In this document: positions 7,702 through 55,432 of the stretch, one piece after another
How positions within the stretch are numbered: position 1 is the first letter of the stretch
Layout of the letters: every line of letters starts with the position of its first letter
Position numbers and translations under genes: made by a program
The notes under the pieces: model-generated
What the model was told of the DNA's origin: nothing
Database searches by the model: none
Seen by the model: only the letters and a program-made list of their open reading frames with translations
Origin: Arthonia radiata
Taxonomy: Eukaryota; Ascomycota; Arthoniomycetes; Arthoniales; Arthoniaceae
Length of the DNA stretch: 64,000 nt
Reading direction: 5' to 3'
Assembly: GCA_002989075.1 (NCBI GenBank)
Contig: PSQN01000017.1
Coordinates: forward strand, 1 to 64,000

Positions 7702-8347
7702 TATAACGCCGGTCGCTGGGAGGACCGAACTAAGGCTTACTTATCTTATATACTTATCGACCTTAATGGTAGGTGTCTTGTATGCTAGAGACTAAAAGGT
7801 AGGAGAGGCGAGATAGATTATAGAGGGTAAGAGGAGCTTAACTAAAGTAGATAGAAGGTAAAGTATGTTACCTAAATATAGTTAAGGAACTTATATTTAG
7901 ATATTAAGTTAATAGACTAAAGTCTATTCTAAGGTCAACTATTAGTTTAGCTATATAGTCTAAGGTACAAGAGAGGTCCTCTAAGGCCGCTGTAGCCGCT
8001 AGTGTTCTTGTAGGTAATCGCGGCTTTCTAGCCCAACGTATCCGCTTTGGCCGCTGTCGGTAAAAGAGGTCTTATTGGCTAAAGATACGCTAGTACCTAT
8101 TAGCGTCCTAGCAAGTAGTAGATATTAATGCTTGGGGGTTTGCTTAGCCGTTCTAGGCTTAGTGTTCGTAATATTTTTCTATATCCGACGGTTCTAATAA
8201 TCCCTTTGTCGCGTGGTTGGGATTCTATTGCAATATAGCGACGTTATTAACGTCGCTATATTGAAGTCGTTAGGTATACTATATAATGCTTTAATAAAGC
8301 TGGCTGCGCTTAGCTCTATACTAGCCTAATGTAGTAAGATTGTAATA
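7702..8347 (-). repeat. Complete LTR of the chromovirus family with ~205 bp extra
   Basis: The two ends match the 450-bp LTR of the 13152-20424 element in reverse complement, but this LTR is 646 bp. About 205 bp (roughly 7970-8175) has no counterpart in the other LTRs and is more GC-rich, with motifs such as CCGCTTTGGCCGCTGTCGG. It lies head-to-tail after the partial LTR 7421-7701. No matching target duplication is visible around it. Confidence 0.75.
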
Positions 8348-11225
8348 TATTAGCTCTATATAAAATCTAAAAGAGCTAGTAGTAAGCTATATTCTCTAGT
8401 ATAGGCTGCTTCTAGGTAATATCTATCGTATATAGTAAGTTTCAATAAATATAATACTCTTTATAGATATTAATATTGTACTAAGCTTTAAAGACTGACG
8501 CTCTAAGAACTCTAGCTAGTTGCTAAACGGTTGCTATAAAAGATTAGAGCAATTAAAGATAGTAAATGTAGTAAGAGCGATTTACAGCTTAAATTTTGTT
8601 TAAAGTTTACTTACTGTATACTAAGGTACGTAGCTATATATTCTTAAACGATAAGCTCTTGCTATTAATAGTAGTAAAGAGCTCTTTAGTTAGATTATAA
8701 TTTTAAATGTAGTATAGGCCGCTGATACGTAAAGATAATTGCTTAAGAAAGACGGCTCTAATAGATATAACGTTGCGAGTTAACTACTAATTAAACTACT
8801 ATATATAGTATAATAAGCTTAGCGCTTCTATATTAGCTTTATAATAAGGTATACGCTATAAGAGGTAAAAAACATTCTTTATAAATATAAAATAAGAGAT
8901 TTATAAAATGTCTTTAAAGGTTAAATTAACTTAGACCTTATTAAGGTTTATATATTTAAAATTAAACGTCTTATAGCTCTTAAACTAGTAAGGTATGTGT
9001 TGCATTAAGGAAAGTCGACCGATAGTAAAGCTTATAACTATATATAACGGTAATAAAGAAGATATTATAAAACTATTTATATTTAGAGATATACTCGCGG
9101 ATAGCGTTTATAAAACGATCGAAGAAGTTTGCTTACAGAGTAGAGCCAAGAAGATAGAAAAACAGATAGTAAAAGAGCTTCGTTATATATTAGTTCTTAC
9201 TGCCTGCTTATTTAAGCTATATAAGACAAGACTTATTATAGATATTGTTAAAATTAACTAAATAGTACTACAGTAGATAAAGGTATTAGCCTATAAGTAT
9301 AGATTAAAGTATATATAGTAGAATACTATTAACTTAAAGCTAATACTCTTTGTCGGTAGAGTAGTACATATTTTTAAATAGTTTTAAGTTTAGAAAAACG
9401 GCGATTGTATCGAATAATAAGTCTCTATAGCTTTAAAAAGTATAGACGTACTTAAACTTTTAAATGTCTATACGGCCGCTGTAAAGATATATATACTAAT
9501 TATTAGTTATAGTCTTGCTAAAGTATAAATAGTAGTAAATATTAATACTAGCTCGGTATATAGCAAGAAAGTAAAGCGTTAAGATAATATAATTAATATT
9601 CTATAACTACTGTATCTAATATAGTTTTAAAGGTTGTAAGTCTATAAATAATAGATCTCTATATATATTGTTGCTTACTACTATAAGCGTAGCTTACTAA
9701 TTAGTGTTATTAAGTATAATAGGCGGTAGAGCGTCTAAATCTTAAATTTTAGAGAAAAATAGCTAAAAGCTAGCTATAATATAGTTAAAAAAGTTAATTG
9801 CGCAATATATATTAAGTAGCGGCTTGTCTATATTTAGTGCTATAAACTTATAATTATAGCTAAAGAGGCAGAAGTTACACTAAAGCTGTTACTAAACTTA
9901 ATATAACTGCTCTAGTTATAGCATATTATTAACTCTCAACTAGACAAATAAAATGCTATAGTCGCTAACTACCGCTAAAAAGGACGGTATAGATAAATAA
10001 TAAGAAGATATAAAGATACTACTAAAAGCTTAGCTTAAAGTAAAAAACTAGAGCTATAAATATAATTTAGACTATTTGTATTCTAACTCTAAGGCGGGTT
10101 ATCTATATTCTAAAGATAATAGAGTATACTTATACGGTCGAAATAGTTAAGACTAATTGTAAACTAAAGACTATAGGCTTTATATATTGCTTTAAGAGCT
10201 ATTAAAGATACTAATATAAGTTAAGAGAGTAAGACTGTTATAGCTATCTAAAGAACCTTAAATAGTTTATTTGTTATTTAATACTATTTAATAAAGAAGA
10301 GTTAAGATAAATGCTTACTGTTGCTATAATATTATAAGGAAAGATATTGTATATAGACGTATTATAGAGCGTAACTAATTATTTTATTTAAAGTTAGTTT
10401 ATAGAGAAGATAGTTTATTGTATACTAAAAAGAAAGCGGGTAAAACTAATAATAGCCTAGTAAAAGTAGTAAAAGTAGAAGTATTATTAAATTAAAGGGT
10501 CTTACTATTACTATTATATTTATTATAGGCGCTTAAAGCTCTAGTCCGTTGTTTTTTAAATCTTTTTTATTGTATACTTGTAAGCTAAGAGCGATACTTA
10601 CTGAAAGCCAATAATAAGATTTATAGCTAATAATTAAGTACTTTAGCGATAGCGTCGACTTTAAATATAGATAAAGATATAACTATTAGAGACGCTAATT
10701 AAGAAGCTAGTTTAGTAATAGAAGGAGGTAATAATAGTAGATAAGACGCTGCTAATAGTATTAATGTAGCGGCTTTATTAGCTTTATAAGCTTAAGATTA
10801 TACTTAACGCTCTATCGCTAGTCGCTTTATATATGTAGTGCGCTCTTATAGTTATATTTCAGTTAAATACTTCTTTAGTTTACCTATAAAGCTCGCTATA
10901 GAAGTAAAAGTAGGCCTATATAGAGTAAAAATAGGTAATTTAGAACTAAAAAGAAAGAAGCAAAGGACGCGCGCGTTAAAGAAGAAGTTTTGCTTACTAG
11001 TAAGACTATAGTAGAGAAAGCCTTTCTATTAAAAAGTAGATACTAAAGGTTTTTATTAAGCAGTAAAAAGCCTACTTATAAATAAAGCTTAAAATAAGTA
11101 GTTAGCTTAATTAGCTAATTAGTACTTAAATATTAATATAACTCTTAGTATACTAGTAGCGCTTTAAACCGTCTTTCTTCTATACTATAGCTATCTAATT
11201 AAGCTTAGTATTTAAGCTTTAATAA
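8348..11225. other. RIP-degraded AT-rich block, origin unrecognised
   Basis: About 2.9 kb of TA-rich sequence poor in CA/TG dinucleotides, as expected after RIP. The only sizeable open frame is 8995-9261 (+), 88 residues, with a plausible charged composition (FRDILADSVYKTIEEVC is part of it) but no motif I recognise. Subtelomeres of related fungi often hold RecQ-type telomere-linked helicase genes, but I found no helicase motif here, so that identity is not claimed. A short diverged copy of part of the telomere-associated sequence lies at about 11107-11160. Confidence 0.6.
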
Positions 11226-11672
11226 GAGAAGCAATATATTAGATCTACTTAAGCCCGCTCTTTACCTATTTACTAGATAAATTTGTATTATTGTTTGTTG
11301 CTTATATATAAATTATAGTACGTACAGCGGATTAGATTAGCTAATTAGCGCTTAAATAAGAGCGTAACTCTTAGTATACTAGTACCGTACTAAATAGTAT
11401 TTACTCTATATTTAAGCCGTATACGAGTACTAAGAGCTAATATTTAAACAATATATTGCGTATAGTATATAATATTGCTTATATTAATTTAAGCTTAGAT
11501 AACGTCTACTAGAGAGGTCTATCTAGTATATTGCTTAGAGACAGAAGAATTTAATAGGGTCTGTTAAGCCGGCGCCCTAGCGTACGACCAATTAGCGTGC
11601 AAATAATACCGTAACTCCGCCTTATTCCTCTCTACGCCGTATAGAACTCTAACTCTAGAGCTAATAAAGGTA
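11226..11672. repeat. Telomere-associated sequence, internal copy
   Basis: Same orientation and extent as 102-549, with mostly transition differences. No telomere repeats precede it. It keeps the shared landmarks AGCGCTTAAATAAGAGCG and GCCGGCGCCCTAGCG. Its position suggests a former chromosome end or a subtelomeric duplication. Confidence 0.82.
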
Positions 11673-13151
11673 ATTTCTACTAATACAAGGAGAGAAAAGC
11701 AACTAGTATTAGATTTTAAAAGAAAAAATAGAAAAAACTAAAGAAAATTAGTTGCTAAAATATAAATAAGATATTTTTAAAGTTTCTAGTAGCTAAAATG
11801 CTAATCTAAATTCTAAGAGAACGGCTAAATCTAGAATAGTAATTTCTACTAATTTAGAGAGAGAAAAGCATCTAGTATTAGAAAAAAGTAGAAAAAGTAG
11901 AAAAAAAAGAAAAAAGTAGACAGTTAAAATTTTAAAAGAAAAAAGAGTTGGAATATATAAAATTCTGAGTTAGATATAGAAGAGACTTTTACTAGTAGAC
12001 TTACTTATAAAAGCTAAACTTCTATTACCTTTAATAGAGACTTACTATACTAATATTAGCTATTCTATAAATAACAAACTATTTTAAAACTATAACTTAA
12101 TAATTAGATTACTTAGAAAGTATTAATAATAATAAAATTTAGTAGTATAAAAAAGAAAAATAAAGAATAAGCTTTTTTAAATAAAAATACTAGTATATAG
12201 TCTATAGAGATCTAATTAAAAGTATATAGTATTTAACTAAGTCTACTATATATAATACTTACTTTTAAGATAATAATAAAATCTTTAGATACTATTAATA
12301 GTTACTTATTAAAAAAATATAAGTAAAAGAAAAATATTCTAGAAAATCTATATCTATAATTAGTAGTTTAAAAAAGATTTTGCTATTATATCTTTCTATA
12401 AATAAGCTAATAAATATATTAAAGATTAAAAGTATACTATAATATTAGTCTTTATTAGTATCTAAATCTTTAGTACTAGCTAAATATAGAATTATAGTAA
12501 AGATACTTAAAATAGTTATTAAGTTTAAACCTCTATAAGTATATTAAAGAAAAGTTATTTTTATAAAGATTAAAGTATTATATAGTCCTTAAAAGTTATT
12601 AACAATATTAATTAGTAGTAATTATATAATAGTTCTAAGTTTATATAGAATTTTAAACTTACTATAGCTTTATATATAAATATATTAATATTATAATAGC
12701 TATTAAATAATATAAAGCTTTAGCTTTATAAAAATTAATAACTTATATAGTAATAGCTTCTAATTACTATTAGTACTACTTTAATAGAGACTAGAATTAG
12801 TTTTAGTAGTAAAAGTTAATTATAGTAAGATAGTTAATAGAAGATTCTATAAATAGATCTCTATTATATAATTCTACTCTACTATATTTACTCTTAAGTC
12901 TTAAGTTTACTTAAATAGATATATATATATATATATAATTATATATTAATAGACTTTAAATACTATTTACTATCTACTATTTAATTTATAAGACCTCTCG
13001 CCTCTTTTCTATTATATTATAGTAATATATTTAAATACTTTTAAAACAAGTTTACTTTACTATTAAGTATAGCTTAAACTAAGAGAAAAGATATCTTTAT
13101 AATAATAAAACAAGTACAATTAAAGTAGATTTAGATAGTACTAAGGCTTAG
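11673..13151. other. Extremely AT-rich relic DNA
   Basis: Nearly all A/T with TA-rich runs and no supported open frame. No terminal repeats or recognisable domain remain. It is most likely an old, heavily RIP-mutated repeat; the family cannot be named. The chromovirus at 13152 inserted at its right edge at a CTTAG site (13147-13151). Confidence 0.6.
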
Positions 13152-13601
13152 TATTACAATCTTACTATGTTAGGCTAGTACAGAGCTAAGCGCAGCCCGC
13201 CTTATTAGAGCATTATATAGCATACCCGACGACTCCGATATAGCGATATTAGCAACGTCGCTATATCGCAATAGAATTCCGACTACACGACAAAGAAAGT
13301 ATCGAGACCGTTGGACACAGAGGAACATACCTATATACCTTAGACTATATAGCCAAACTAATAGCCGACCCTAAGATAGACTTTAGTCTATTAACTTAAT
13401 ATCTAAATATAAGTTCTTTAACTATATTTAGATAACGTGCTTTACCTTCTATCTACTCTAGTTAAGCCCCTCTTACCTTCTATAATCTATCTCGCCTCTC
13501 CTGCCTTTTAGTCTTTAGCACACAAGATACCCACTACTAAGATCGATAAGTACACAAGATAAGTAAGCCTTAGTTCGGTCCTCCCAGCGACCGGCGTTAC
13601 A
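13152..13601 (+). repeat. 5' LTR of the Gypsy chromovirus
   Basis: 450 bp, matching 19975-20424 with mainly C/T and G/A differences. It is preceded by the CTTAG target duplication and followed by the leader starting CTTTAACAGACTCGC. Confidence 0.9.
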
Positions 13602-16600
13602 CTTTAACAGACTCGCTATAAAAGCAGAAAAAGCAGATTAATTATATCTACTACTTCGACACCCAACAGCCGCAATGCTGCGAACAGATTGACTAACAGA
13701 ATGACTAGCACAAATAAGATATTAAACGTTAACATTAAGATAGAAAAAAGCTTCTTAGATAAACGTTCCGAAGTTACTTTATTCTTTATACGCCTAGCCG
13801 TATACTTTAGAACTTACAAAGACTAGTTTCCAAACGATATTACTATAGTTCTATTCGCTACCTTTTATATAAACAGAGATGCCTACAAGTAGGTTGAGTA
13901 CTACCTTAACGATTTCTTGTTTACTCCGATAAAGAGCAGGCGCGAGGATACCAATAAGTTCTTCGCTAGCTTTACCTTCTTTTAAAAGAAGCTTCGCAAA
14001 ATCTTTAGACAGACCGACGCCGGACGCGTCGCTACCAGGAAGCTTAGGAACCTTAAACAAATAGGACCAGCAAGCAGGTACGCCGCCGAATTTATATAGT
14101 ATGCTAATTAAACAGGATAGAACGAGAAACCCCTTATCGAGACCTTTTACAAAGGACTTAAGAATTATGTTAAGGAAATAATCTATATTCGTAGAGAAAA
14201 GTTTGATAATCTCAACAACTTTATACAACGAGTAGAGAAGATCGACGACAGCAACTTTAAAAGACAGATAAAAAAGAAGGGTAACCCTACTAATAGGTTC
14301 TATAAAACAAAGAATCGAGCAAACTTACGACAAGACCGAGGCGATCTAATAGAGCTAAATTTTATAAAGCCTCGAGGGAAACTAAACAACTAAGAAAGAG
14401 AACACAGAATAAAGAACAAGCTATACTTATATTGCGAAAAACTAGGGCATTAAGTTAAAGAATGCTGTTTCAAGAAACAACAGTTCAACAGTACCGGCAG
14501 AAACGAGCACAACAATCGATCTTAGAAACCCCGTCTCCCACGACAATAGTTTAACATAACTACCCAGACAAAAGAAGACAACGGTCGTAATAAGGCAATA
14601 GAACTACTAGCAGCCTTCTCCGACCGTTGGCAGAAGGACCCGACCGAGGGTTGTCCTCTCTAAGAATTAGGTCTCCTACAAAAGACTATCCAGAACTAGT
14701 ATAAGTACGTTGCTAAACTAACTAAGGAGCAGAAGGACATCTACTGAGATACCTTCTATAACCAGAAAAACACTCACCAGGTTTCATTCAACGAGAAGCA
14801 CTATAAGTAGAATTTATTTAATTTACACAAAAACTAGGATACAGACATTAAGTTATAGAAAGAAACAAAGGAACGATAAATAAAATAGGAACAACAAAAC
14901 TTACAGAACTAAAACAACATTAACCGCACTATTCTAAGACAGTAGGTATAAGATACCGCTACACCACACGAAACACTATTCTAGACTGCGTGCTACGATA
15001 ATAATTATACGACCCACGAATCTAATAAATTAGAATTAAGATGGTGGTCAAAGAAACCGATATCTCCGAAACAAGGTTCGACACAAGAACTAGGCCTTAC
15101 CCGAGAACGATCTAGGTCACCTTACCTAGAAACCTAAAGGAAATTTAAGGAAGAACAGACCGTAGAAGCTAAGCAAGACAGCAGCTACGATACGTTATAG
15201 GTAAGACAACGACTTAAAGACAAAAATATAGATTCTAATAGTACAGAATTCTCGCTTAAGAACGATACTAACTAGAAAGAGCAAACCTCAATCCGTTAGG
15301 AAGGAATAATATAGAGACTTTGTTAGTTGTCCTTCTACGATAGAAAGTTGAGCGCTAATAAAGATATTAACGATATCCCAAAATATATTTACTTACGCCT
15401 ACGACGACTAGTAGACCACCTTATTAGGGGTCTAGAATTATATAGTCAGTACCAATATCTTTAACTAACAATATACAACCTACAGACACGACGAGTTTTA
15501 ACCAGCGATAGTTGTATAATTAAAGCAGGGATCGTAAACAATAAACTAGACGTTATAATAAAAGCAGTACTAGAACACTCTACACAGGAATTCTTATAGT
15601 AAATTAACCGACAATAGGTTTCGGTACCTAAAATACTTCAGAACGTATACAATTAACAGGAAAAAGACTAGACCGACTGCTTCGAGGGCAGTAGTACCAG
15701 CCCGTCCAACGGTTAGACCCTCTAGGAGTTTAGCTCTATACGAGCTCGACTGCCTATAGAACATACCTACATACTCGGACAACAATAAACTACAGAAACA
15801 TTAAAATTATAATTAATTTAGGCGCAACAGGCAACTTTATCTTAATACGCTGCGTTAAGAAGTGCTAGATATAAATATAAAAGAAGAAATTACCCTACGC
15901 ACTGTTTAAATTTCAAGGAACAGAAAAAAGAGTCGATTACGAGACTTCGCCAATAGGTATAACAATTAGAGACTATTAGGAAGAAATTACTTATAATATT
16001 GTAGATATTAACCAGCACCACGCTATGCTAGGTATACCCTAGTTGCAACAATATAACCTAGAAGTAGATTAGAGAACTAAGAAACTCCTCTTTACTAGGT
16101 ACAAGTACTCTAGACAAGAGTCGTTCTACAGAACGGATACTCTACAAGCTAATTTTAGTAGTAAGGATAAGGAGCGCGATAAGGAACTTACGCAGGTTAG
16201 CACTACTACACTCCAATATTTAGACATTTTACGAGAGGAGTCTAACGCAGTATCTCGTCTATGGCCAACTACACGCAAGTATAAATAAGAGACAACTGTA
16301 CGCCAACGATTTTATACAACGACAAGTACTTAGTTAATTACTAAGATACCCGAGGAATACAATCAATTCCGACACCTGTTTAAAGAAGCTGAGCCGGACT
16401 CAGCTCTCCTAGAACATAAACCGTAAGATTACACAATACCTTTATAAGAAGGTAAAACGCTAATATTCGGTCCAATATACTCTCTATTAGAAGCAGAAAA
16501 TTAAGCGCTCCGCAATTATCTTAACAAGAACCTTAAGAAAGGATTTATCTGAAAGTTAACATTACTAGCCGAATACCCGATACTCTTTGTACCAAAGAAG

Positions 16601-19600
16601 AATAGCAAACTACGACTTTACGTAGATTATAGACAACTAAACAAAGTAACTATTAAAAACCGATACTCTCTACTATATATCGACGAAATAACAGATCAAT
16701 TGTATAACGCGCAATAGTTTACTAAGTTTAACCTACAAGGAGCCTACAATCTAATCTGTATAAAGAAAGGCGAAGAATAGAAAACGGCCTTCTATACCAG
16801 ACACAGACTTTTTAAGTATTGCGTTATACTCTTTAGGCTAACAAACGCTTTAGCATTATTTTAGGAACTAATTAACAACACACTTAGTAATTACCTAGAT
16901 ATATTTATAACTGCTTATCTAAACGATATCCTAGTATATAGCCGTATACTAGAAGAACATAAGAAACATATTAAGAAGGTATTAGAAAGATTAGCGCGTA
17001 CCGATTTACAAATCGATATCAAGAAAACTTAGTTTTACCAACAATCCGTCGAATTTCTTAGATTTATAATTACTGAGCACGGTCTTTAAATAAAAGATTC
17101 GAAGATCTAATCCGTTCTAACCTAGCCTACACTAAAGAATATAAAATAACTGCAACAGTTTCTTAGTTTTACTAATTACTATAGGCGATAGATATCCAAC
17201 TTTAGCCGAATTACAGTACCGCTGTCTTAACAGACGAAAAAATCGATAGAATTCTCCTAGACGTAGAAAGAACAATCAGTATTTAAAGAGCTTAAGGAAG
17301 CTTTTAAGATCGAGCCCGTACTAGCAATATTCGACCCTAAACTACCGATTATTATAGAAACAGACGCGTTAGACTATATAATTGAAGTATGTATAAGTTA
17401 AAACAACAAAGAAAGAAAGCTTAGATCAGTAGCTTTCTACTCAAGAAAAATGTTACTTACAGAACAAAACTACGATATTTACGATAAAGAGCTTTTAGCC
17501 ATTATAGCAGCATTCGAAACATAGCGAGCTTACCTAGAAGGAGCAAACTATACGATTATAGTATATATAGACTATAAGAATCTAACTTACTTTACGACAA
17601 CAAAGAAACTTAACTGCAGACAAGTTAAATAGTTAGAAACTATAGCTCTATACAACTTTATTATTACTTACAAGAAGGGTTCCGAGAACGACAGGGCCGA
17701 CGCTCTAAGCCGACGACCAGATTACCTTAATAACAAGAAACACGTCGAGCATACAATATTCCGAGAACACAATAACGAGATCAGATACAATCAATTAGCT
17801 ATAACAACCGAGTTTGTTATTGAACCAGACAGCCGAATCCCAGATATCCTGAACGACCCTAAGACCTACTAGGAAAACGAGAAACGACACCCAGAATTAA
17901 CTAAGAACAACAGAGGCTACTACGAATTCTAAGGCAAAATCTATGTCCCAAGGAATCTAATCCAAAACATTATTAGTAACTTCTACGATAACCCAACTAA
18001 AGGACACAAAGGCATCGATAATACTATAGAAAAGATTACAAGGACCTATTATATCCTGAGAATCCGACACCACGTTAAGAATTATATCTAAGAATACGAT
18101 ATATACGCAAGAACTAAGCACCCAAGGCATTCACTATACAGTAAACTACAACCACTCGAGACACCCGAGAGACTATAGTATATAGTCTTACTAGACTTTA
18201 TTACTAAGTTACCAACCTCCAAGGATCTACTTACAGGAGTAGCTTACGACGCTATCCTAGTTATATGCGACAAACTAACAAAGTACGCGTACTTTGTACC
18301 TTATAAGGAAGCTAGCAACTTAGAACAGTTAGTATATACCTTCCTTCGAATTATCTTAGCAAACTATAGCTAACCCCAAAGAATTGTCTTAGACAGAGAC
18401 CGGAAGTTCGTCTTACGGTTTTAGATATCTCTAATACAACAGCTAGAGACAAAACAAAAAATATTAATATTATTCTATCTACAAACGGACGGACAGACAG
18501 AACGAACAAATTAAACACTTAAACAGTATCTCCGGGCATACATCAACTACCAGCAAAACGACTAGGTACAGTTACTACTAGTAGCGCAAGCGGCGCACAA
18601 CGATACAAAGAACAATATAACTAAGACAACTCCGTTCTACGCCTTATATAGCTATTACCCTCTTTAGAGAAGATAACTACAAAATACTATAGAAAACGAA
18701 TTAGCTACACGAATAGCTACGAACATAAAACACCTGCACCAGCAGTTAAAGTCTGACAGCAAGTTTATTAACGAACGAACAAGAAAGTAGTATAATAAGT
18801 TAAGAACTACCTCAAACACAAGCATAAAAGAGAGGGGAAGAGCTTACTTGCTTATAAGAAACTTAAAAACTATCAGACTAAGTAAAAAACTCGACTATAT
18901 TAAGATAGGACCGTTTAAAATCTTACAGCAATTGAGACCCGTAATATTTAAACTTAAATTCCCGAAGATAATAAGAATACATCCTATATTCTATGTAGCG
19001 CTATTAAAACTAGTCTACTTTCGAGAAGCGGAACGATCTAACCTAGAAATCCTTTCTGACAATTAAGAATCCGAGTATAAAGTCGAAACAATTCGAGCTT
19101 ATAGACAACACCGAGGCAAACAACAGTATCTCATAAAATAGAAAGGATATCTTAAACACAAAAATTAATAGAAACTAGAACGAAATCTAACTAACTATAA
19201 AGACACCGTTCGACAGTATTAGGACTAGAGTTTCAATCGGTTGTAACAGCACCAATACCCTAATCCACTACCTAGTATACCTTACCGGTACCCAGGTCGT
19301 CTATAAACGAACCAGCCCACCACCTAACTCTGGAAACGGATCGTTACGAAAATCTATACTTAAGCTACTCGGCATATCTACGATATTACTATCGAACATA
19401 GCCGCCAGCTATTCTTCTTTAAACAATATGTTATTCTAATTTATTTTGTTCTGCGCCTAGATACGCAACCTTTTGAGCTCCTTCTCTGAATCTACAACTA
19501 CCGCTTTAATAACTTCGCGCTACCTTTTCGCCGCACGAACGACTTCCTTCTCTTCTAACAAACGCTTACATTGCTCCTAAAAGGTATTCAACACCCGCAA

Positions 19601-19974
19601 GTACTAAGAACGAATACTCCGAGCTAAAAAATAAGTTAAATTAACAAAGACAATAAACGTAGGATAGAAACTAACTATCCTTTAACGATAAACAAACGTT
19701 ATACGACTTCTTATCGCGAGTATATACAAAACACGATGCCTTCCTAGACTTTAGAACACACTTCTTATCTAAGTAAGAGCAACGGGAACACAGAGGCATC
19801 TCTCAACCACAGACTTCGGTAAGGACGGTATTAATCTCGAGCGCTTATCAGCGCTAGGGACTTTCTTAACTTTGGGCATAACGACTTACAGAACTAGATC
19901 TATTACAGAGAGACAACGAGGTTTTAATGTCTCTAGGGCCGTCGAGGACGACTAGCCTTAAAGAGGGGACCTTG

Positions 19975-20424
19975 TGTTACAATCTTACTATATCAGGCTA
20001 GTATAGGGCTGAGCGCAGCCCGCCTTATTAGAGTATTATACAGTATACCCGACGACTCCGACATAGCGACGTCGGCAACGTCGCTATATCGCAATAGGAT
20101 CCCGACTACGCGACAAAGGAAGTATCGGGACCGTCGGACACAGAGGAACATACCTATGTACCTTAGACTATATAGCTAGACTGATGGCTGACCCTAGGAT
20201 AGACTTTAGTCTGTTAACTTAACATCTGAATATAAGTTCCTTAACTATATTCAGGTAACGTGCTTCACCTTCTGTCTACTCTAGTTAAGCCCCTCTCACC
20301 TTCTGTAATCTGTCTCGCCTCTCCTGCCTTTTAGTCTCTAGCACACGAGACACCTACCACCAAGGTCGACAAGCACACAAGGCAAGTGAGCCTTAGTTCG
20401 GTCCTCCCAGCGACCGGCGTTACA
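19975..20424 (+). repeat. 3' LTR of the Gypsy chromovirus
   Basis: 450 bp, starting TGTTACAATC and ending GGCGTTACA, followed by the second CTTAG. It holds the segment CAGCGACCGGCG, which is also conserved in the LTR copies at 7421-8347. Confidence 0.9.
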
Positions 20425-36601: not shown

Positions 36602-38268
36602 CTATCGACCACAAAGTCCGCTTCCTGCCAACTTGTCCTCAAGAAACAACACTTGAGGCACGCCTCCAGCAAGCTTCACCTGCAAGTCGCCCGAATTGCC
36701 CACAGTCACTACGTTACAGCTGAGCACCTCCATGAGTGCAGTCCCCTCAGGATAGCCATGCGCTGTTCCCAGATCAAGCGAAGTCTGTCCCGCACCTGAC
36801 CCAAGATTTGACACTGCAAACACTATCTGGCTGCCGCTCGGTCCTTTCGCGACGCCAATGCTGTGCTCGTCAAGATAGAAGAAGTTCGCTCGTGATCTCG
36901 CATACGCGCCAGCGTCTGCAGCGTTGATAGCTGCACGTCGAACAGCATTTAATGTTGTCACAAGTGGAACGAGCGGCCCAGAAGCTGAGTATTTCGATGC
37001 CCATGTCGCTTCGCGGTTGTTGTTCACATCTCCGTTGTAATGTTGCTCTTGCCCTGCGTAAACGATGGGAATCCCGTCTGTCAGTATGGTATAGGCGAGA
37101 ACGTTCCGCGCAAGTGACATGTCTGAGGTGAGTGAGGCGAAGCGGGGCTGGTCGTGATTTTCGGAAAAGGATCCTAACAGACCTGGATCGCTGCAAGAAG
37201 AGTTCATGCCGCCGGCTGTCGAGATGAAGCCGTCTGTGGTACTTGAAGCCGAGGAAAAAAGATCTTTGATGGCATAGTACATCGGATAGTTCAAAACACC
37301 ATCGACACTAGACCTTGCAGCGCTTGACTGAAACGGACAGACATATTCAGCTGAGGCATCTGCCACTTCACCCATGGCATAGATGCCAGCTGCGTCTTGG
37401 AATGGTCCCCAGAAGTCGGGTTCGACGTTTTTCACCGTGTCAATGCGCAGACCATCGATTGTGTAGTTGGAGACCAACGATCTAATCCATGAGGCATACG
37501 TCGAACGGACCTCAGATTGTGTTGTGTCGACTATCAATCATGAGTGGGGGATACCACTGACACATGGACATAATGCTCACCATCGGGAACAGGAAACTGC
37601 TCGTTCCCGAGCCAGCAATCGATCATATTCTGATCATGAGATGAATAATCTGCATCCGTGATCCAGCAAACGTTGTGAAAGTACGACTGCTTGCCGAACG
37701 GTTCCATGGCGCTGAAATCAATGCTCGACGACGGGCCAGGGGCTCCAAAGTGGTTGATGACGATGTCCACCATGAGGTACTAACTGTTGGTCAGTCTCAT
37801 GGGCGACTCCGCGCGTTCAGAAAAATGCACTTACCATGCCGCGACTATGAAGAGCTCGTGACAGTGATTTCAGGTCATCTGAGGTGCCAAAGTTAGAGTT
37901 GATGCCGTAGAGGTTGGTTTGCATGTATCCAGTATAGCCACGAGTTGGGTCAGCAACTTGCTGCGTCACTGGACTGATCCAAATAGCATCGAAGCCCATG
38001 TTCTTCGCCCGTCAGCATCCTAAGTAGGCGCACAGTAAGTAAACCAGCCTCGTACCTGAATATAGTCGAGGTGGTTCTCAATGCCAGCCCATGTGCCCTG
38101 ACAGTAGCCTTGAAAGTTGCCTGTGCATGGGTATGTTGTACTTCCGTCTGTCCTCGCATAACGATCTGTCATCACTTGATAGATTGACCTGTCCCGCCAT
38201 ACATCTGGACCAGCAGCTACAGCATAGCTCGTGAGGAGCAAGGGCCCAATGAGCAACTTGAGGAACAT
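36602..38268 (-). CDS. Secreted alpha-amylase (GH13, TAKA-amylase type)
   Basis: Four exons, 38268-38056, 38002-37835, 37779-37581 and 37530-36602, with introns of 53, 55 and 50 bp, encode 502 residues. This is close to the ~499 of Aspergillus TAKA-amylase. A signal peptide (MFLKLLIGPLLLTSYAVA) precedes AGPDVWRDRSIYQVMTDRYA. The catalytic residues are in place: nucleophile Asp224 in GLRIDTVKNV, acid/base Glu248 in MGEVADAS, and transition-state stabiliser Asp320 in SENHDQPRF; MVDIVINHF is the first conserved region. There is no starch-binding CBM20 domain after the C-terminal beta domain. It hydrolyses alpha-1,4-glucan outside the cell. All junctions keep the frame. Confidence 0.93.
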
Positions 38269-53838: not shown

Positions 53839-54223
53839 TCTCCCGCGCGTGACTACTTGTCGTGAAAGCGAGTACTAGTATCCTTAGAGTCGCTCAAGAA
53901 GCTGAACTCGTCCCTGTCTGAAATTTGCAGCTGTGGCAGCGAATGCAAGTTGAGCTTGCTAACAGTGCCGCCCTATGATGAGGTTGTCGAAGTTTGAACC
54001 GTGGCGTACGTGTGAATTGAAGGAGCTCTGTATGTAAAGGCTTTGATTGCTGGACGGTCGGGGAGAGACTCAAGATTGTTTCTTCAAGTTGACACTCTTG
54101 GTGAGTTCGCATTTAGCATACTATTCACAGACATTAGGCTACTTCTGCTCGCAGCAAATGTGCGCCACAAAAGCTAGATTGGCAACAGCAATAGATATTT
54201 CAAAACAATTTTGGCAGCTGATA
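53839..54223. other. Intergenic region upstream of the hydrolase and the tRNA
   Basis: About 385 bp between the hydrolase start (-) and the tRNA-His gene (+). Nothing distinctive is seen. Confidence 0.5.
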
Positions 54224-54363
54224 GGTGGTGTGGTGTAGTGGGTTAGTTTCCACCGGAGATGCACCCCGAAGAGACCTCTCTGACAACCGCAATAGTAGCA
54301 TATCACGTTGTGGTCTTTCCTCGAAATTCCGTGCTGACGGCGGTTCGATTCCGCCCACCGCCA
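54224..54363 (+). tRNA. tRNA-His (GTG) with two introns or inserts
   Basis: The 5' acceptor strand GGTGGTG pairs with CACCGCC before the discriminator A at 54363. An A-box-like TGGTGTAGTGG (54231-54241) and a perfect B box GGTTCGATTCC (54342-54352) are present, and the T-arm is GGCGG-TTCGATT-CCGCC. The anticodon loop reads TTGTGG with GTG at 54310-54312, as in yeast tRNA-His. Two insertions interrupt the gene. One is ~15 nt (54314-54328) at the canonical intron site next to the anticodon. The other is ~54 nt (about 54242-54295) inside the D-loop, starting GTTAGT, with CTGAC at 54280-54284 and ending TAG. With both removed a ~71-nt cloverleaf forms, with a possible mismatch at the outer anticodon-stem pair. 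A pseudogene is the main alternative. Confidence 0.8.
54242..54295 (+). other. GT-AG-type insert in the D-loop of tRNA-His
   Basis: Begins GTTAGT, contains the branch-like CTGAC 11 nt before the final AG, and is 54 nt long, matching protein-gene introns in this window (for example 24125-24181). The exact borders can slide because TAG is repeated at both edges. Confidence 0.6.
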
Positions 54364-54413: not shown

Positions 54414-54419
54414 TTTTTT
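54414..54419 (+). terminator. Candidate RNA polymerase III terminator
   Basis: A run of six T about 50 nt downstream of the tRNA-His 3' end. It is the first T run of this length after the gene. Pol III usually stops at a nearer T tract, so a long trailer is implied. Confidence 0.4.
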
Positions 54420-54529
54420 GCTCTTGTCGACACACTCTCTTCTACTGTTCATTGTACTCCATGTGAAGCGCCGGTATCTCTAATTGAGTATAGCTACATC
54501 TCATATTGTACCTTAGGGTGAGGGGGGGG

Positions 54530-55200
54530 CCAAGATTACTATATATACACCGTATTTATACCTTAATTTTAGATACATGTAACCTATAGCATTACTATCC
54601 GATGTTAGTAATACTACCAACTACATAAAAGCTTAACTTATATATTGCGCTAACAACACATAGCAATACAGTATATATACTATATCTATTGTATTTTATA
54701 AGTAGTAAAAAAGTAAGAGCCTAACAGGTAAAAAGAGTATACCTATAGTAATATAGCATACTATATAATACTTATATTATATAAGGTAAAGTAAAGATAT
54801 ATAGTAAGCGAGGCTTAAACCTCTTACTACTAGTAAGTCTATAGAATAAATATACTACTACTAAGCTACTTAGGTAAATATATAAAGATAAAGATTGTTT
54901 ATTTAACTATAGAACATATTTACTATATTATATTCTAGAGCGCTAGCTTTGAGGCATACTGTTAATATAGTATAAATACGGTATAAATATAGTAATAATT
55001 GAAGTAAAGAAAGCGTAATTTACGTATAAATTAAAGTATATAAGCCTTAGAAAACTGTATATATACTGTAAATTAACAATTATCGTGTATATACCGTAAT
55101 TCCTACCCGGTGCTCCTCTCTAAGGTACAACGTTGCCTACGAGTAAGCGTATAAGCAGAGCAATTCTCTACTTTCAATTAAATTAACAAGTCTCAGGTCC
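54530..55200. repeat. AT-rich RIP-like island beside the tRNA gene
   Basis: About 650 bp of strongly AT-rich, TA-dominated sequence begins about 170 bp downstream of the tRNA gene, within otherwise normal gene space. Short related motifs such as CCGTATTTATACC near 54549 and its reverse complement near 54966 recur. No coding remnant or LTR is recognised. It looks like a small decayed repeat insertion. Confidence 0.55.
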
Positions 55201-55432
55201 CAAAAGACCTATTCCGATTTTAGATTACTGTAGGACTAAATTCGGTTCCACTCTTCAATACATATAAGGACCATACCGTCTCAATTTGCCCAGTTTCCTT
55301 CTCAGCCCACCGGGCCTCCATTGCACATACTTCAGCGAGCAAGCCTTGCGATTCGTAGGCTGAAGTCTCGAGAGCGTAAGATCCTCCAGACACCCTTCAC
55401 AGCCTAAGCTAAGCACTATCACTGTACCGAAA

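Follow-up and report, generated by a model that had tools for sequence, protein, structure and literature searches.

In the genome of this filamentous ascomycete a single tRNA-His(GTG) gene was found; its D loop is interrupted by a 54-nt insert, and this insert is very likely to be a U2-type (GT-AG) spliceosomal intron. It is most likely one of at least 24 such introns that are spread over at least 16 of the genome's tRNA genes, and they may be the first spliceosomal introns to be recognised as a set in nuclear tRNA genes. Introns of nuclear tRNA genes are usually credited to the tRNA endonuclease. The gene lies in the window, that is the whole stretch of DNA that was analysed, which comprises the first 64 kb of contig C1 in a genome of 33.5 Mb and 16 contigs.

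The tRNA-His locus

The initial annotation of the window had placed a tRNA-His gene at 54224-54363, and the acceptor, A box, B box, anticodon and T loop it described were all found (Table 1). With a predicted cloverleaf, a GTG anticodon, A73 and both A and B boxes, the locus can be read as tRNA-His(GTG). The acceptor strands pair as GGTGGTG/CACCGCC and a T27/C43 mismatch forms a blemish in the stems, with both boxes, the T-loop and anticodon-loop residues, A73 and a 37/38 intron all being kept. Both of the inserts that had been described could be located, one of about 54 nt that starts with GTTAGT, contains CTGAC and ends in TAG, and a separate one at the canonical site. It is also the case, as had been stated, that the A box ends exactly where the larger insert begins and that the B box is intact. 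The 54-nt insert sits in the D loop and not at 37/38, which is occupied by the 15-nt intron; the same gene thus carries a canonical tRNA intron and an insert that differs from it in site, length and signals.

Table 1. Features of the tRNA-His locus and the alpha-amylase and U6 introns or genes compared with it; positions refer to the window unless another contig is named
Feature	Position	Strand	Remark
tRNA-His(GTG) gene	54224-54363	+	read from sequence; ARAGORN after insert removal
5' exon of tRNA-His	54224..54241	+	acceptor strand, positions 8-9, D stem, start of D loop
A box TGGTGTAGTGG	54231..54241	+	end coincides with start of insert
GT-AG insert in D loop, 54 nt	54242..54295	+	GTTAGT...CTGAC...ATAG; read as spliceosomal-type intron
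CTGAC, candidate branch site	54280..54284	+	12 nt between its A and the end of the insert
Middle exon	54296..54313	+	rest of D arm, position 26, 5' anticodon stem, loop with anticodon GTG
Intron at canonical 37/38 site, 15 nt	54314..54328	+	tRNA-endonuclease type; ARAGORN on spliced sequence
3' exon	54329..54363	+	position 38, 3' anticodon stem, variable loop, T arm, acceptor strand, A73
B box GGTTCGATTCC	54342..54352	+	intact
ATATTT, weak TATA-like stretch	54195..54200	+	predicted; 29 nt upstream of tRNA-His gene
T6 run, candidate Pol III terminator	54414..54419	+	51 nt past tRNA-His gene
alpha-amylase intron, 50 nt	37531..37580	-	GTGAGC...TTGAT...TAG; YTNAY motif only, no CTRAY
alpha-amylase intron, 55 nt	37780..37834	-	GTAAGT...ACTGAC...TAG; placed by eye from reading frame
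alpha-amylase intron, 53 nt	38003..38055	-	GTACGA...GCTGAC...AAG; placed by eye from reading frame
U6 snRNA gene L109	C12:477511		
U6 snRNA gene L110	C14:1994194		
U6 snRNA gene L111	C2:1988232		

When the sequence is given to ARAGORN with and without the insert, tRNA-His(gtg) with its 15-nt intron is called only after 54242-54295 has been removed, which agrees with the initial reading of the gene; with the insert left in place the program calls a spurious tRNA-Ser at the locus. The intact window gave no match with ARAGORN in bacterial mode and none with Rfam at the gathering threshold. A weak tmRNA-like match across the locus was rejected, as it is due to the acceptor and T arms. A comparison with a plasmid collection returned 21 records with short matches, none of which covers 80% of the query.

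The cloverleaf score was calculated for every possible removal of 20-99 nt from the gene. Thirty of the 6280 excisions tie for the top score and two of these have GT-AG borders (0.19 expected by chance), with the control border type AG..GT restoring the gene equally in score and anticodon. The spliced gene scores 54.5, which is at the low end of the 52.5-60.5 range of the other spliced genes. Taken singly the borders of the tRNA-His insert are not significant and are at most suggestive of GT-AG; because this test is weak, the other tRNA genes of the genome were examined.

Interrupted tRNA genes across the genome

Two routes were used to find tRNA genes. The Rfam tRNA model gave 16 matches at E<=0.001 and 20 at E<=10, with 63 of 1065 candidates scored; 19 of the 20 matches were read, a weak one at C9:1401980 (19.7 bits) being left out. 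Three B-box patterns gave 36, 56 and 22 matches, mostly by chance, and 112 of these 114 sites were read, with two on C15 left out. All of the resolved genes except tRNA-Glu(TTC) were found without regard to introns; tRNA-Glu(TTC) surfaced as a stray match of a His-anticodon pattern and was noticed through its GTATGT.

Thirty tRNA genes were resolved, 16 of which carry a total of 24 GT-AG inserts, with the other 14 having no insert outside 37/38. The GT-AG inserts touch 11 of the 17 amino acids for which a gene was resolved. A single insert is found in each of the genes for His, Arg(TCT), Gln(CTG), Thr(AGT), Ala(TGC), Lys(TTT), Ile(AAT), Leu(CAG) and Leu(TAA), two are found in each of those for Arg(CCG), Thr(CGT), Thr(TGT), Ala(CGC), Glu(TTC) and Tyr(GTA), and Asn(GTT) has three. 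The genes with no insert outside 37/38 are those for Cys, Met (three genes), Arg(TCG), Arg(CCT), Trp, Gln(TTG), Phe, Pro, Lys(CTT), Asp, Leu(AAG) and Ala(AGC). Canonical 37/38 introns are present in many tRNA genes of the genome. For Thr (three genes), Tyr, Asn, Ile, Glu and His the only genes among those resolved are ones that bear GT-AG inserts.

The inserts are not confined to one part of the molecule. Counted by hand, one lies in the acceptor stem, eight at 9/10 or in the D arm, seven at 25/26 or in the anticodon arm, four in the variable loop and four in the T arm; the acceptor-stem insert, in tRNA-Leu(CAG), leaves a first exon of 4 nt.

No tRNA-Gly, -Val or -Ser gene was found either by the Rfam model, with 63 of 1065 candidates scored, or by the B-box patterns, and the catalogue of tRNA genes is therefore incomplete. 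Genes for Gly, Val and Ser may be hidden behind inserts in the T arm, or may have T stems that fall outside the patterns used. Two further loci, L053 (C15:1542260, minus strand) and L133 (C10:1653446), have tRNA-like acceptor and T arms with a middle that could not be parsed and were excluded from the counts; L133 reaches a score of 55.0 with a GT-AG excision and the same score with a control border type. A locus called as tRNA-His by ARAGORN (L015) makes a better tRNA-Arg(CCG) that carries two GT-AG inserts.

Are the GT-AG borders forced by tRNA structure?

For 15 of the insert-bearing loci all 256 border types were compared, with as many as three stretches of 45-65 nt taken out of each locus and a score of 52 or more counted as a pass. 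Only GT..AG restores all 15 loci, the next best types restoring seven and six, a comparison that favours GT-AG somewhat because the loci were chosen after hand parsing with GT-AG had worked. In all 15 the GT-AG optimum is the same as the hand parsing.

The 23 inserts of these loci can also be taken one at a time, after any others in the gene have been removed. For 11 of 23 inserts there are at most eight equivalent registers and no better excision, and in 11 out of 11 cases GT-AG is among these registers; the product of the chance expectations for these 11 is 6e-20, a value that is too optimistic, again as the loci were chosen after GT-AG parsing. Elsewhere there are excisions that score better and are not GT-AG, 59 of them for Ile, 14 for the first insert of Arg(CCG), six for the first of Asn, three for the second of Tyr and one for the first of Thr(CGT). 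The first insert of Arg(CCG) has 826 tied excisions, so the test is powerless there.

A blind run over the 112 B-box sites gave a maximum of 46.5 for sequences that are not tRNA and scores of 53.5-60.5 for ten intact tRNA genes. It recovers 11 of the 15 GT-AG genes, placing their inserts identically, and these score 52.5-60.5. In this run each of five control border types also lifts some of these tRNA loci to 50-55. The remaining genes lie outside the filter of the run, with a split T stem in Gln(CTG) and Ala(CGC), a split acceptor in Leu(CAG) and no B box in Glu.

ARAGORN was run on the same 15 loci. With the inserts in place eight of the 15 loci receive no call and seven receive a wrong one, and with the inserts removed the right isotype is called in 11 of the 15. 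Among the others, Thr(AGT) and Leu(TAA) receive an anticodon of four bases that is ambiguous, Leu(CAG) comes out as SeC(tca), and insert-free Asn(GTT) is misread as Ala from another start; the cloverleaf score used for the excisions gives Asn(GTT) 58.5 with the anticodon GTT.

A hold-out case is provided by tRNA-Arg(TCT), which came from a partial Rfam match on C6 that covers model positions 8-63, with no intron criterion used. The T loop of this gene is split by 55 nt of the form GTCCGT...CTAAC...CAG, with 10 nt after the branch A. Among 6040 excisions the best score is shared by three, including one with GT-AG borders, against a chance expectation of 0.005; ARAGORN makes no call on the intact gene and calls Arg(tct) after removal of the insert.

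Splice signals and comparison with U6 and protein-gene introns

The signals inside the inserts were not used in the border-type or blind tests. CTRAY with its A 10-15 nt from the end is present in 19 of 23 inserts, compared with a mean of 1.8 and a maximum of seven when the interiors are shuffled (1000 rounds). A G at +5 is found in 21 of the 23 and a T at +6 likewise in 21 of the 23, the tRNA-His insert having both in its GTTAGT. The inserts are 49-61 nt long with a median of 54 nt, the introns of U6 being 51, 55 and 56 nt and those of the alpha-amylase gene 50, 53 and 55 nt.

It had been suggested that mRNA-type introns in some fungal U6 genes are a parallel to the tRNA-His insert, and this parallel is present in the genome itself. 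Three U6 snRNA genes score above the Rfam cut-off, and each has a GT-AG intron in the same place, CCCTGCA/GT...AG/CTAAGGATGACAC (slashes mark the borders), with TACTGAC and 11 nt after its A. At least seven matches to 5S rRNA and the one to SRP RNA fit their models from end to end, and at the level of these model matches there is no sign of an intron.

A likeness between the insert and the protein-gene introns of this genome had also been claimed; it holds for the three alpha-amylase introns of the window on which the comparison rests, with the qualification that CTRAY is present in two of these three, its A being followed by 9 and 11 nt, and that the third has only the looser TTGAT. The exon downstream of the third intron is tied to solved amylases by homology, the other borders being taken from the reading frame, and the encoded enzyme is closest to alpha-amylase A/Taka-amylase chains. 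Such gene content, together with the short introns, suggests a filamentous ascomycete. Since 15 further tRNA genes and three U6 genes appear to carry introns of this type, the GT-AG reading put forward for the tRNA-His insert is the best supported one and is stronger than the initial annotation could show.

Alternative explanations

Inserts outside 37/38 are also known from other tRNA genes. In the red alga Cyanidioschyzon merolae 34 of 43 tRNA genes are disrupted, permuted ones included (PMC3978253), and there as in nucleomorphs ectopic introns occur, like the inserts described here, in the T and anticodon arms as well as the D arm, with more than one in a gene and alongside a 37/38 intron (PMC3978253, PMC4090602). 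The 54-nt insert could accordingly be an ectopic intron that is cut by the tRNA endonuclease at a bulge-helix-bulge (BHB) motif, the hallmark of introns removed by this enzyme, an enzyme that is presumably present because tRNA-His has a 37/38 intron, with its GT and AG being coincidental. This is very improbable. The C. merolae introns have a BHB and depend on the tRNA endonuclease, whereas the BHB score at 23 inserts averages 5.30 of 10 compared with 5.19 when borders are drawn at random within the same loci, a near-complete BHB is found in none of the 23, and the tRNA-His insert forms two of the four central pairs. Nor would a BHB predict GT-AG borders, G at +5 and T at +6, or a branch motif at a fixed distance, all of which are seen here. 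As many nucleomorph introns are also without a defined BHB (PMC3978253), its absence is not absolute proof against such an origin.

Another reading treats the locus as a pseudogene: an old gene for tRNA-His that an insertion has broken, the genome having an intact copy at another place. In eukaryotic tRNA genes insertions in the D and T arms mostly affect one of many synonymous genes (PMC4090602), the T27/C43 mismatch would fit a decaying gene, and with an incomplete catalogue a hidden His copy is conceivable. The initial annotation had singled out a second intact tRNA-His gene, together with a lack of spliced reads from this locus, as the finding that would point to a pseudogene, and no such gene was found within the reach of the searches. 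Used as a DNA query against the whole genome, the gene matches itself only at E<=10. None of the 19 Rfam matches that were read, out of 20, is a tRNA-His; the window gene itself is absent from this list, and therefore another disrupted His copy could be missed too. A pattern of the His anticodon and T arm gave 18 matches, with a full 5/5 T stem in the window gene only; 14 of the remaining matches have four or fewer T-stem pairs and the other three allow no judgement. A search with the pattern of the His acceptor end matched one place besides the window, on C7, which is not a tRNA. These searches are of limited reach, but tRNA-His also retains its two boxes, the conserved residues of the T and anticodon loops and a 37/38 intron, which argues against decay. 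Furthermore, the same interruptions are found in the sole genes detected for Thr (three genes), Tyr, Asn, Ile and Glu, and it follows that not all of the interrupted genes are dispensable. Within the reach of these searches the pseudogene reading is very improbable.

That the inserts stem from a recent burst of mobile introns, introner-like elements which would still be spliceosomal, is the least probable reading: such elements are reported in fungi including Dothideomycetes (PMC4457414, PMC9860276) and AGGTTCG is present at both ends of the insert in tRNA-Gln(CTG), but no two tRNA inserts are alike at E<0.01 in a comparison that covered the inserts themselves and 298 kb of fetched loci, two U6 introns sharing the sole similarity, one of 19 nt, and the His gene has no other match genome-wide. 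Old and decayed introners are a possible origin of the introns.

Transcription and a proposed route to mature tRNA

If the 54-nt insert is a spliceosomal intron, a route can be proposed for the tRNA-His gene that is modelled on the introns of U6 transcripts. RNA polymerase III, directed by the A and B boxes, would transcribe the gene in full, and the spliceosome would then use GTTAGT as the 5' site, CTGAC as the branch site and the final AG to join 54241 to 54296 in the nucleus. The cloverleaf could form only after splicing of the D loop, presumably followed by trimming of the ends, and the tRNA-splicing endonuclease and ligase would then remove the separate 15-nt intron at 37/38 to give what is predicted to be a functional tRNA-His.

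Sequences that may direct transcription are found around many of these genes. A run of at least four T residues occurs within 80 nt of 13 of 15 GT-AG genes and of nine of the 12 other tRNA genes that were checked. An AT stretch is present 29-50 nt upstream in 11 of 15 GT-AG genes, including Glu(TTC), and within 65 nt in seven of 12 insert-free genes. In tRNA-Glu(TTC) (L117, C15:955600-956000, minus strand) an insert splits the B box, GGTT/CGATTCC, and a TATA-like ATTATATAA starts 41 nt upstream of the gene. Because this insert destroys the B box, a purely internal promoter is hard to reconcile with tRNA-Glu(TTC). We know of no precedent for the spliceosome acting on a Pol III transcript whose first exon is 4 nt long, as would be needed for tRNA-Leu(CAG).

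Taken together, spliceosomal introns have probably invaded the whole nuclear tRNA set in this lineage, affecting most isotypes at any place from the acceptor stem to the T loop, with as many as three in one gene in addition to the endonuclease intron. The tRNA supply, and hence translation, would then depend on the spliceosome, and Pol III would use an upstream element in at least one gene, Glu(TTC).

Relation to known systems and significance

The closest likeness is to the U6 snRNA genes of fission yeast and other fungi, which resemble the tRNA inserts in having GT-AG borders and a branch site within a short non-coding Pol III transcript. There is reportedly a paper by Canzler and co-workers on the introns of fungal U6. 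In fission yeast the U6 intron is spliced by the spliceosome (PMC10484740). U6 lies in the active site of the spliceosome and this gives a reason for reverse splicing into it, whereas a tRNA has no such reason; reverse splicing, as proposed for U6, is one candidate for how the introns entered the tRNA genes. Unlike in U6, at least 16 tRNA genes are affected here, at many sites and one gene three times.

The nuclear rRNA genes of lichen-forming and other ascomycetes likewise contain mRNA-type introns in a gene that does not code for protein, with the difference that rRNA is a Pol I transcript. Spliceosomal introns in these genes are said to have been described by Bhattacharya and co-workers, and an 18S example reportedly by Rogers et al. 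in 1993. Such introns in ascomycete rRNA genes are also the subject of PMC8527467.

A 2014 review of tRNA introns states that insertions in the D or T arms of eukaryotic tRNA genes are mostly deemed pseudogenes, those of algae and nucleomorphs excepted, and its main text has no word beginning with "spliceosom" (PMC4090602). No report of spliceosomal introns in nuclear tRNA genes was seen among the matches listed in open PubMed Central, judged by titles and the starts of abstracts, with subscription journals and preprints lying outside this scope.

If the reading is true, the spliceosome is able to act on Pol III transcripts that are very short and uncapped and whose first exons can be just a few nucleotides long, and the supply of tRNA is tied to splicing by way of essential and apparently single-copy genes. 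It would also provide countable gains of introns outside protein-coding sequence, on which reverse splicing and other theories of intron gain could be tested. As ARAGORN misses or miscalls all 15 of 15 insert-bearing loci, similar cases may sit unseen in other fungal genomes.

Other observations

Some of the tRNA genes lie very close together. The genes for tRNA-Phe and tRNA-Pro (L009/L014, C7:416249-416544, minus strand) are arranged head to tail 3 nt apart, with inserts of 72 nt and 76 nt respectively at the canonical site according to ARAGORN, and possibly form one transcript. Those for tRNA-Trp and tRNA-Met (L007, C3:815151-815302) are 7 nt apart and are likely to form a two-gene transcript.

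Within the window, an A+T-rich stretch (66-77% A+T) extends over 54500-55249, from about 130 nt behind the tRNA-His gene, and is perhaps what is left of a mutated repeat that had inserted next to the gene. Near the contig end the region 8001-20000 has a G+C content of 28-36% and a strong skew, compared with 49-55% G+C from 24 kb on.
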